Positions 22,305 through 25,344 of a DNA stretch of 64,000 nt are shown here, piece by piece (position 1 is the first letter of the stretch; every line of letters begins with the position of its first letter). The stretch lies in NCBI RefSeq assembly GCF_013328815.1, contig NZ_JABUHN010000005.1:248001-312000 (forward strand), given 5' to 3'. The DNA comes from Tabrizicola fusiformis (GTDB lineage Bacteria; Pseudomonadota; Alphaproteobacteria; Rhodobacterales; Rhodobacteraceae). The notes below the pieces were generated by a model, which was given only the letters and a program-made list of their open reading frames with translations, did not search any database and was not told the DNA's origin. The translations under genes were made by a program, and so were the position numbers.

Positions 22305-22393
22305 GAGCCCGGAACGGGCGAGGGGGCAGCGCCCCCCTTTTCCCCGGGCGTCAAGGGCGCTACACCCTGATCAGCAGCATCGGGGAGTGGGCC

Positions 22394-23626
22394 ATGGCCG
22401 AGGACGGGTTGAACAGTTTCATGACGGGGCCGGACGAAGCCGGGCGTTTCGGCATCTTCGGCGGGCGGTTCGTGTCGGAAACGCTGATGCCGCTGATCCT
22501 CGATCTGGAAGAGCGCTATGAATATGCCAAGACCGACCCGAGTTTCTGGGCGGAAATGGACGATCTGTGGAAGCATTATGTCGGCCGCCCCAGCCCCTTG
22601 TATTTCGCGCCGCGGCTGACCGCGCATCTGGGCGGTGCCAAGGTCTATATGAAGCGCGACGAGTTGAACCACACCGGCGCGCACAAGATCAACAATGTGC
22701 TGGGGCAGATCATCCTTGCCCGCCGCATGGGCAAGACCCGGATCATCGCCGAAACCGGCGCGGGGCAGCATGGGGTGGCGACGGCAACGGTCTGCGCCAA
22801 GTTCGGGCTGAAATGCGTGGTCTATATGGGCGCGCATGATGTCGAGCGGCAGGCGCCGAACGTGTTCCGCATGAAGTTGCTGGGGGCCGAGGTGATTCCG
22901 GTGACCTCGGGTCGCGGCACGCTGAAGGATGCGATGAACGATGCCTTGCGCGATTGGGTGACCAATGTGCGGGACACCTTCTATTGCATCGGCACGGTGG
23001 CGGGGCCGCATCCCTATCCGGCGATGGTGCGCGATTTCCAGTCGATCATCGGCAAGGAAGTGCGCTGGCAATTGGCCGAGCAGGAAGGCGAGGGGCGGCT
23101 GCCCGATACTGTGGTGGCGGCGATCGGCGGCGGCTCGAATGCGATGGGGCTGTTCTTCCCCTTCCTTGACGATCCTTCGGTGAACATCATCGGGGTCGAG
23201 GCGGGCGGCAAGGGCGTGGACGACCGGATGCAGCATTGTGCCAGCCTGACCGGCGGGCGGCCGGGCGTGCTGCATGGCAACCGCACCTATCTGTTGCAGG
23301 ACGGCGACGGGCAGATTCTGGAAGGGTTTTCGATTTCGGCGGGGCTCGACTATCCGGGGATTGGGCCGGAGCATAGCTGGCTGCATGACATCGGCCGGGC
23401 GAGCTATGTCTCGATCACCGATGCCGAGGCGCTGGAGGCGTTCCAGCTTTGCGGCAAGCTGGAGGGAATCATCCCGGCGCTAGAGCCTTCCCATGCGCTG
23501 GCGCATGTGATGAAGATCGCGCCGGCCCTGCCCAAGGACCATATCATCGTGATGAACATGTGTGGCCGGGGCGACAAGGACATCTTCACGGTTGCCAAGC
23601 ATCTGGGCGTGCAGATGGCTGTCTGA
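22394..23626 (+). CDS. trpB: tryptophan synthase beta subunit
   Basis: TrpB condenses indole and serine using PLP. The 410-residue protein shows the PLP Lys in [10 protein letters not shown] and the phosphate loop GGGSNAMG, plus the [10 protein letters not shown] loop. The ATG at 22394 follows ggggag. trpF, often adjacent upstream, and trpA are absent from this window, so the gene is monocistronic here. A terminator follows at 23648. Confidence 0.97.
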
Positions 23627-23647: not shown

Positions 23648-23678
23648 GGGCCGCCCTTGGGGCGGCCCATTTCGTTTT
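23648..23678 (+). terminator. intrinsic terminator after trpB
   Basis: The stem GGGCCGCCC / GGGCGGCCC has a short ttg loop and is followed by atttcgtttt. Confidence 0.85.
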
Positions 23679-23833
23679 CGCGGCATAAACTGCGGTTTAT
23701 GGCCCTATTTCTTGGGGATCAGGGGGCCGAAGCTAAACCCCCGGTCAATAGCCGGCGCCTGATCTGCCGTGTTTCCTGCTGTCATGCCGGGGGGATGTTC
23801 CGTCCGGTGCCATAGACAGGAAAAGGACAGGAC

Positions 23834-24307
23834 ATGAAAACGAAGTTCCTCCATGCCGCGGCCATGCTGATGATGAGCGCCACGCTCTCGAATGCGGCAA
23901 TCACCAGCGATGATCTGGTCGCGCAGTATCAGGCCCAGGGCTATACGCGCATCGAGATCAAGGTGGGGCCAACCCTGGCCAAGGTCGAGGCGATCAAGGA
24001 CGGCCAGAAGGTGGAAGTGCTGTATGATCTGGTCACCGGCGCCATTCTGAAAACCGAAACCGAACAGGTTCAGGCCGGCGACGACGTGAGTCCGGGTGTC
24101 GAAGTGCGCACTGTCAGCGATGAGAAGCTGGATGACGACAAGGGGCGTGGCCGCAGTGACGGCGAGGACGACGACGACAGCAACGATGACAATGACGACG
24201 ACAGCGGTGATGATGACAGCGGTGACGACGATGGCGGCGACGACGACAGCGGTGATGACGACAGCGGCGATGATGACGGCGGTGACGATGACGGCGATGA
24301 TGATTGA
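23834..24307 (+). CDS. secreted PepSY-like protein with long Asp-rich tail
   Basis: The 157-residue protein has a signal peptide (residues 1-22, ending in LSNAAI), a PepSY-like domain (about 25-80: YQAQGYTRIEIKVGPTLAKV, then VLYDLVTGAILKTE) and a tail from about residue 100 made of Asp with Gly/Ser, in repeats such as DDSGDDD. The tail is very acidic and could bind divalent metal ions or stay disordered; this is inference. Its gene is low-complexity from about 24160. A similar protein (24412) and a LuxR-type regulator (24823) follow on the same strand. Confidence 0.75.
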   Translation: MKTKFLHAAAMLMMSATLSNAAITSDDLVAQYQAQGYTRIEIKVGPTLAKVEAIKDGQKVEVLYDLVTGAILKTETEQVQAGDDVSPGVEVRTVSDEKLDDDKGRGRSDGEDDDDSNDDNDDDSGDDDSGDDDGGDDDSGDDDSGDDDGGDDDGDDD

Positions 24308-24344
24308 GCTTGCGTGCTGAGATGCTGCTCGATTGACTGCAACG

Positions 24345-24369
24345 GGCGGTTCGGCCTTGCCGGACCGCC
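24345..24369 (+). terminator. hairpin between the two Asp-rich genes
   Basis: The stem GGCGGTTCGG / CCGGACCGCC (one G-T pair) has loop ccttg and a weak tail. It may only attenuate. Confidence 0.5.
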
Positions 24370-24411
24370 TCATCTGGTTGAGAAGGGGGCCGAAATCATC
24401 GGTCTGAAGCT

Positions 24412-24810
24412 ATGAAACGTCGCCAGTTCCTGTTTGTCGGGGCAGCCGCCGCGCTTTTGCCAAGCGTCGCTTTTGCGGCCGATTTCGCCGACAAGATCAT
24501 CCGTCGCCTGCGCAAGCAGGGCTATACCGATATCACCACTTCGCGGACCTTGCTGGGCCGGGTGCGCATCCTTGCGTGGCGCGGTGGCGAATCGCGCGAG
24601 ATCATCCTCAATCCCCATACCGGAGAGATTTTGCGCGATGTCTGGACGGCGGCGGATGGCCGGCTGGTTCCGGGCACGCTGGAGGGCGATGACAGCGACG
24701 ACGACAAGGATGATGACAAAGACGACGACGAGGAAGACGACGACGAGGAAGACGATGGGGGGGACGACGACAACAGCGGATCAGGCGGCGGCGATGACGA
24801 CGAAGACTGA
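24412..24810 (+). CDS. second secreted PepSY-like protein with Asp/Glu-rich tail
   Basis: The 132-residue protein has a signal peptide with an RR pair (MKRRQFLFVGAAAALLPS, cleavage near AFAAD), which might be Tat-like, although the usual S-R-R-x-F-L-K is incomplete. A PepSY-like domain follows (about 25-80: RLRKQGYTDITTSRTLLG, then EIILNPHTGEILRDV), then an acidic tail from about residue 92 made of Asp, Glu, Gly and Lys. It is a diverged paralogue of the protein at 23834. The LuxR-type gene starts 12 bp after its stop. Confidence 0.75.
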   Translation: MKRRQFLFVGAAAALLPSVAFAADFADKIIRRLRKQGYTDITTSRTLLGRVRILAWRGGESREIILNPHTGEILRDVWTAADGRLVPGTLEGDDSDDDKDDDKDDDEEDDDEEDDGGDDDNSGSGGGDDDED

Positions 24811-24822
24811 CCGGGCGCGTCC

Positions 24823-25344
24823 ATGAAGCGCCCGTGGGCCATCCTTGCCATTCTGATCGTGCAGGCGTTGAGCGCCTTCTTCTTCATTGCCGATATCCTG
24901 TCGTCCTATATTCCGCTGTGGTCGCGGCCTCTTGCCTGGCAATACCGCGAGTTGCTGGAAATTCTGTCGGCGCTGGGGCTGTTTCTGGGCGTGGTTCTGG
25001 GGGCGCTGTCGCTTTGGCGGGCGCAGCGCGAACGGCATCTGGCCGAAGAGCGGCTGCGCCGTGCCTCGGGTGCCTTCATGGATCTGTTGCAGGAACGGTT
25101 CGGCGAATGGGCCCTGACCAAGGCCGAGGCGGATGTGGCGCTTTTCGCCATCAAGGGGCTGTCCACCGCCGAAATCGCGGTGCTGCGGCAAACCTCGGAA
25201 GGCACCGTCAAGGCGCAGACCAATGCGATCTATCGCAAGGCGGGCGTCTCGGGGCGGTCACAGCTTTTGTCGGTGTTCATCGAGGATCTGATGCGCGATG
25301 AGGGCACCCTGCGCCCGGGTGCCGCGCGGGCGGCGGCGGAATAG
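24823..25344 (+). CDS. membrane-anchored LuxR-type transcription regulator
   Basis: The 173-residue protein has two N-terminal membrane segments (about residues 5-25 and 45-65), a short coiled region (RAQRERHLAEERLRRA) and a C-terminal LuxR/GerE helix-turn-helix (about 95-155: LTKAEADVALFAIKGLSTAE, then SEGTVKAQTNAIYRKAGV). The DNA-binding domain would face the cytosol. It starts 12 bp after the second Asp-rich gene, so it probably shares its transcript and may control this cassette. No receiver or autoinducer domain is present. Confidence 0.8.
   Translation: MKRPWAILAILIVQALSAFFFIADILSSYIPLWSRPLAWQYRELLEILSALGLFLGVVLGALSLWRAQRERHLAEERLRRASGAFMDLLQERFGEWALTKAEADVALFAIKGLSTAEIAVLRQTSEGTVKAQTNAIYRKAGVSGRSQLLSVFIEDLMRDEGTLRPGAARAAAE

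Follow-up and report, generated by a model that had tools for sequence, protein, structure and literature searches.

A conserved and probably autoregulated signaling cassette of secreted PepSY-like proteins and a membrane-anchored LuxR-type regulator in Rhodobacteraceae

The window (the whole 64,000-nucleotide stretch of DNA that was analyzed) belongs to a genome of 4.4 Mb and contains three genes, A, B, and C, arranged head to tail on the plus strand, with 12 bp between the stop codon of B and the start of C (Table 1). The original prediction had listed these three open reading frames and the 12-bp gap, and all were present exactly where it had placed them. Since a hairpin follows trpB on one side and a gene encoding a DUF2237 protein faces C at the far side of the cassette, the three genes appear to form a separate unit. 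A strong GC hairpin in the A-B intergenic region is seen again in related loci (mean z of -1.6 over 77 loci, with z < -2 in 21 of them; -1.4 for this intergenic region in the window), and it may lower the output of B and C relative to that of A. On the minus strand, a Val/Ile-rich open frame of 222 codons (positions 23705-24373) lies opposite gene A and mirrors its Asp codons; it is unlikely to be a gene.

Table 1. Features of the cassette and its upstream region (positions in the window)
Feature	Position	Strand	Details
trpB	22388-23626	+	651 bits vs TIGR00263 (cut-off 392)
Terminator-like hairpin and T-rich tail, 3' of trpB	23648-23678	+	9-pair stem, loop of 3
Putative operator site 1, CATAAAC-TGCG-GTTTATG	23684-23701 (core 23686-23699)	+	Palindrome
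Putative operator site 3, TAAACCCCCGGTCAATAG	23734-23751	+	48 bp past site 1; TAAAC recurrence across cassettes
Gene A, exported protein	23834-24307	+	157 aa; PepSY-like domain at about residues 21-75, Asp-rich tail
A-B hairpin, possible attenuator	24344-24370	+	RNA fold
Gene B, exported protein	24412-24810	+	132 aa; divergent PepSY-like domain (24460-24690), Asp-rich tail
Gene C, membrane-anchored LuxR-type regulator	24823-25344	+	173 aa
C, helix 3-29	24829-24909	+	
C, helix 39-95	24937-25107	+	
C, GerE helix-turn-helix	25114-25272	+	Residues 98-150

Proteins A and B both begin with what, judged by eye, are export signals; the RR-x-F-L stretch of B scored under the TAT cut-off of Pfam. Against the PepSY_2 profile, A reached 22.6 bits and B 15.8 bits, under the Pfam cut-off of 24.3 in both cases, and both proteins thus fell short of PepSY membership (PF03413/PF13670) by curated cut-off. 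Family alignments were built from 48 of 85 B rows plus the window (A1), 54 of 88 C rows plus the window (A2), and 51 of 90 A rows (A3). In A1, PepSY_2 matched 20 of the 49 members and PepSY matched 19 at an E value of 0.1 or better, the best being 6.6e-4. The B family has invariant positions in T-x-L-G-R, R-E, and G-E-x-L-R-D. Profile-profile comparison gave a 98% probability (E value, 1.6e-13) that A and B are homologous. The structure of B was predicted, with a pLDDT of 86, as one helix followed by five strands (H-E-E-E-E-E). Foldseek returned zero matches to this model at an E value of 0.001 or better, and a sequence search of solved structures with B gave no convincing match. In a second structure comparison, in which all Z scores stayed below 8, a Mediator chain came top (7.6); the matches included 4exr (6.7), 4ipb (6.0), 3nqy (5.5), and 5boi (5.3), which we take to be PepSY-type chains, 3nqy presumably being a vibriolysin complex and 5boi being YpeB.

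The original prediction had assigned a PepSY-like domain and an acidic tail to both A and B, which is what the window contains, while among relatives the tails are acidic in most proteins, not in all. In 141 different B proteins (duplicate B domains left out), the tail had a median length of 73 residues and a median Asp plus Glu content of 40%. This content was at least 20% in 111 of them, at least 30% in 87, and less than 10% in 8, and tail length varied less than tail charge. The tail of B can thus be described as a low-complexity extension that is conserved and, for the most part, acidic. A strain-specific expansion, which the original prediction had named as a result that would count against it, was ruled out by the 111 acidic tails and their similar lengths. 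Similarly, a strict requirement for acidity was ruled out by the 8 tails with less than 10% Asp plus Glu and by the Gly/Ser/Asp tails of a relative from the same genus (L040); those 8 tails also indicate that strong cation binding by the tail is not required everywhere.

For its part, C scored 28.6 bits against GerE (PF00196; cut-off, 23.5), and all 55 members of A2 matched this profile at an E value of 0.01 or better. A sequence search of solved structures with C retrieved two GerE domains (E value, about 8e-4). Pfam detected no receiver or autoinducer-binding domain, a feature of NarL or LuxR proper, and beyond GerE it gave just sub-threshold hits to sigma-70 region 4 and LapA. Membership of C in the LIC13292 family (NF047608) was not supported (60.7 bits, far under the cut-off of 200), and no literature on LIC13292 was found. 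The predicted structure (pLDDT, 86; pTM, 0.61) consists of a first helix (residues 3 to 29), a loop of about 9 to 10 residues, an unbroken second helix (residues 39 to 95), and the GerE domain. Hydropathy was maximal around residues 14 and 54, and a basic stretch follows the second segment, so that both ends of C should be cytoplasmic. The two hydrophobic segments, the GerE score, and the modeled helices bear out the view of C as a two-segment membrane protein with a LuxR helix-turn-helix. Q14, D24, and E46 are conspicuous in the membrane part. D24 was conserved in 98% of the C proteins found with B (type I, defined below), 100% of the cytochrome b561-linked type, and 72% of the other C rows, and E46 in 100%, 100%, and 83%, respectively. 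In type-I C, the recognition stretch TSEGT and AQ were invariant.

Homologues of C (E value of 1e-8 or better) were found in 123 of 198 sampled Rhodobacteraceae genomes and B (1e-6) in 91, all of them among the 123 with C; none of the 75 genomes without C contained B. B lay directly 5' of a close C in 61/62 and 85/88 loci of two locus sets, which overlap in part and whose counts were not de-duplicated between them. The four exceptions were a locus in which an EF-hand protein takes the place of A and B (L096, see below), two contig ends (L139 and the second copy of L170), and a single open frame running through B and C (L181, 4369-5328). The first helix of C is damaged in L181, and a genuine B-C fusion was set aside as a probable frameshift in a metagenome assembly. 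C of a genome from the same genus, apparently Fuscibacter oryzae (L121), was 80% identical in the best segment. A was less conserved than B and C: among 136 cassettes (loci with fewer than 1,400 bases upstream left out), the A domain was encoded 5' of B in 88, of which 79 were acidic, while another acidic open reading frame occupied this place in 11 and neither was present in 37. A is thus optional, and B and C are the core. Several loci contain tandem repeats of B plus C (L128, L132, L144, L145, L157, L161, and L163); L170 likewise has tandem copies, and in most of these eight loci one of the copies encodes a B whose tail is not acidic.

In Rhodobacteraceae the usual place of the cassette is between trpB and the DUF2237 gene, and trpB was found within 4.5 kb upstream in 53/62 and 66/88 loci. 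Part of the co-occurrence is therefore plain inheritance, and this strong synteny is what could be expected if the genes were neighbors by inheritance alone and had no joint function. We consider such an explanation highly improbable, given that no genome searched had B but lacked C and that the two genes remain together at 21 loci away from trpB, in another family, and in duplicates copied as a pair. Chance co-location or synteny alone was accordingly ruled out, as B and the upstream palindrome described below stay with C away from trpB and B was absent from the 75 sampled genomes without C. In a sample of the class, B was detected in 4/385 genomes, two of which belong to another family; in each of these two, a C gene lies no more than about 1 kb away in the same orientation. 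C itself (1e-10) was present in 21/385 genomes of the class, 17 of them outside Rhodobacteraceae, and in 39/398 of the phylum. Contigs labeled Devosia, Rhizobiales, or Phyllobacteriaceae (L126, L135, L143, L173, and L193) also hold the cassette, with C 65 to 70% identical; L126, L135, L143, and L173 keep the palindrome and lack trpB. These contigs represent either mislabeled bins or transfer. The neighborhood search suggested by the original prediction thus revealed wide co-occurrence, not the lack of it that would have spoken against a functional set, and the prediction understated what was observed.

A dyad search of the DNA ahead of the first cassette gene detected TAAAC-N4-GTTTA in 75 of 108 regions, with about 0.3 expected in shuffles. 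We then define type-I cassettes as those with C of at least 150 bits and B present, which gave 138 after 5 duplicates and 5 loci with fewer than 1,200 bases upstream had been removed from 172 rows. The palindrome lay within 2.6 kb upstream in perfect form in 117 of these 138 and with up to one mismatch in 123, the remaining 15 having more than one mismatch and being counted as lacking it. It was also perfect at 17 of the 21 cassettes without trpB in 6 kb. By contrast with these figures, L104 was the sole one among 22 more distant C loci to have it. It occurred 3' of C in 5/138 cases, all five ahead of a second, tandem cassette. Among eight type-I loci sharing no 60-mer with the discovery set, five had the palindrome (L289, L291, which was already in the set, and L294 were left out). 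The consensus is close to CATAAACYNNRGTTTATG, with the 7-2-7 spacing of NarL-type sites. Further sites form an array with it: a weaker one about 21 bp on and a third, TAAACC-N4-GGNCAATGG, about 47 bp on, TAAAC being found at +45 to +48 in 79/118 cassettes. In the window the second site is not recognizable and the third starts at 23734.

The palindrome of the window is the sole perfect copy in its 4.4-Mb genome, and a site this exclusive speaks for the regulator encoded in the cassette. The likeliest reading is that C autoregulates its operon through the palindrome, which is likely an operator bound by C. A genome-wide excess of the palindrome over a reversed control was not found: allowing one mismatch, the genome holds 7 matches (six besides the cassette) against 46 for the control, and exact matches number 1 against 2. 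The place of the palindrome, not its number, is therefore informative, and in view of these counts we do not claim a wider regulon in this genome. A perfect site somewhere in the genome was present in 74/91 genomes with B and 40/107 others, a contrast confounded by base composition and relatedness; the latter comprise 12/32 genomes with C and no B and 28/75 without C, as base composition predicts. These background matches would also suit another, global factor binding the palindrome, with C regulating something else, and the assignment of C to this site is one that we infer. Such a factor is quite improbable, as a genome of 4.4 Mb would be expected to offer it more than a single perfect site, and the palindrome follows the cassette away from trpB. 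Additional perfect sites in other genomes were inspected at 16 loci chosen among the matches listed, 15 of which hold one. Among the matches listed, these sites precede genes for a multi-EF-hand protein (120 bp ahead; L273, genome G047), a b561/dihaem cytochrome (L276), a multicopper oxidase (L272), and a Gly/Ser-rich secreted protein (L274), with no pattern seen in the other eleven.

A lead to the nature of the signal came from loci in which EF-hand proteins occupy the place of A or of both A and B. In L096 the order is trpB, the palindrome, a gene for one secreted protein, which has two EF-hand loops in addition to a long Asp-rich tail, and C, with both A and B absent. This protein scored 33.3 bits against EF-hand_5 once the tail was removed (cut-off, 25.9), and 17.2 bits at full length, below the cut-off of 25. 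Similarly, the A slot of L071 is filled by an EF-hand protein (28.6 bits; cut-off, 25) whose tail is Asp-rich, and the multi-EF-hand gene of L273 is the third case. Since the replacement in L096 keeps the tail, the palindrome, and the regulator, these cases, just three in number, suggest that what has been retained is the ability to bind cations, and they hint that the cassette manages calcium in the cell envelope. The proposal of the original prediction that a periplasmic ion is sensed gained support to this extent from L096 and L071. No observation bore on its other suggestion, the inhibition of a protease. Metal binding by a PepSY protein has also reportedly been observed. Tail length being steadier than tail charge would fit another role as well, in which the PepSY protein reports the state of the outer membrane, as DbfQ does, and the tails serve just for solubility or wall attachment; the DbfQRS system responds to outer-membrane perturbation (PMC12714742). 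We regard an envelope-damage sensor of this kind as unlikely, because it leaves unexplained both an EF-hand replacement with a similar Asp tail and the high Asp content of most tails.

With regard to known systems, the closest in logic is DbfQRS of Vibrio cholerae, in which the PepSY protein DbfQ acts on a histidine kinase by binding to the sensor domain, and PepSY genes also neighbor BqsSR of Pseudomonas aeruginosa (PMC12714742). An earlier V. cholerae paper already notes the PepSY gene (PMC7768729), and in Caulobacter a PepSY-like locus is implicated in ferric iron reduction (PMC12004947). As described there for DbfQRS and BqsSR (PMC12714742), small periplasmic PepSY proteins, sometimes two, are encoded just 5' of a membrane signaling protein, as in the cassette, whereas those proteins pair with a histidine kinase that has a periplasmic sensor domain and works with a response regulator. 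C, in contrast, combines two membrane helices and a GerE helix-turn-helix in one protein and has hardly any outer domain, and the PepSY-like proteins encoded with it have long, mostly acidic tails and can be replaced by EF-hand proteins. The neighbors being trpB and the DUF2237 gene, and C having no receiver or kinase domain, the cassette is not a PepSY two-component module; by analogy, it would best be explained as a one-component counterpart of DbfQRS-type signaling. A periplasmic protein that is controlled by its membrane regulator and in turn feeds back on it is also known from ZraP/ZraSR and CpxP/CpxRA, which are two-component systems made of unrelated proteins. No paper on a PepSY protein with a membrane LuxR regulator was found, including in Rhodobacter, b561, and EF-hand/calcium contexts, by a literature search that had most subscription journals outside its reach. 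The gene set is thus apparently undescribed, in line with the original prediction, which knew of no described system of this composition, with the qualification that a system of the same logic, DbfQRS, is in print.

Taken together, A, B, and C constitute a conserved, probably autoregulated signaling cassette. In the model that we propose, A and B would be exported, and the PepSY-like domain of B would touch C on its periplasmic side, where an outer loop of just about 10 residues implies that C needs a partner or ligand at the membrane. Binding of a cation, most likely Ca2+, by the acidic proteins would alter the B-C contact, and the change would travel down the unbroken second helix of C to the GerE domain. 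A dimer of C would then act on the TAAACYNNRGTTTA operator ahead of A and set the output of A, B, and C, closing a homeostatic loop, with the binding proteins as output and input at once. The contact between B and C is plausible and the identity of the ligand as Ca2+ is tentative; as a whole, a self-regulated one-component envelope sensor with a divalent-cation input, Ca2+ being the likeliest, falls a little short of probable in our judgment. The linkage of B to C, the tandem repeats of the pair, the placement of the palindrome, the invariant TSEGT and AQ of type-I C, and the EF-hand cases speak for it. Against it stand the 15/138 cassettes without the palindrome, the number of EF-hand cases (three), the 8/141 weakly acidic tails, the b561-linked C genes, the synteny with trpB, and genome-wide palindrome counts no higher than those of the reversed control. 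More tentatively, there may be a class of one-component transmembrane GerE regulators that borrow their sensor from secreted PepSY-like or EF-hand proteins in an autoregulated calcium-buffering circuit acting through a multi-site operator; if so, such regulators would be the one-component counterpart of PepSY two-component systems. The cassette offers a testable case of how a membrane-anchored transcription factor without its own sensor domain could receive a periplasmic signal, with a likely operator named and divalent-cation homeostasis proposed for Asp-rich secreted proteins that are otherwise hypothetical.

Homologues of C were also found beside cytochrome b561 genes. A gene with b561 motifs lay upstream in 19 of 57 lower-identity C loci of Rhodobacteraceae, and one b561 and three small PepSY_2 proteins from such loci passed the Pfam cut-offs, one of the three coming from a locus without b561 (L110). 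These operons resemble the cassette in that a gene for a PepSY_2 protein adjoins a C homologue (about 40% identity), and differ from it in the b561 gene, the tailless PepSY protein, a recognition stretch that mostly departs from that of type I, and the lack of TAAAC-N4-GTTTA except in L104. Weak dyads alone were detected for the cytochrome-linked types, the best being AGGT-N5-ACCT in 7/19, and no description of a PepSY, cytochrome b561, and membrane LuxR operon was found in print. A paralogous C subfamily comprises L039, in the genome of the window (G000:C12:302489-302953), L108, L112 to L114, and L117; in L112 to L114 and L117, C comes after genes for a PepSY-like protein without a tail and for cytochrome b561.

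The presence of related C genes beside cytochrome b561 suggests another input at those loci. The cassette itself could have derived from PepSY/b561 electron-transfer operons and respond to envelope redox state or iron instead of Ca2+, which the extra palindromes before the b561/dihaem cytochrome and multicopper oxidase genes, among the matches listed, would also suit. BqsS, which has PepSY neighbors, reportedly senses Fe2+ (PMC12666569). A redox or iron input is nevertheless rather unlikely, since the type-I cassettes read contain no b561 gene, the replacements seen are EF-hand proteins, and the type-I recognition stretch and palindrome are unlike those of the b561 types. Because PepSY/cytochrome b561 operons with homologous regulators are found beyond Rhodobacteraceae as well, working out a single case would shed light on many loci. 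Among the loci outside Rhodobacteraceae with a C recognized by pattern, a b561 gene was present in L201, L206, and L211 and, by eye, a small PepSY-like open reading frame in L201, L206, L208, and L209, while no b561, cytochrome c, or PepSY-like gene was seen in L204 and L212. In L205 and L207, from other families, genes with cytochrome c (CxxCH) motifs adjoin the C homologues.
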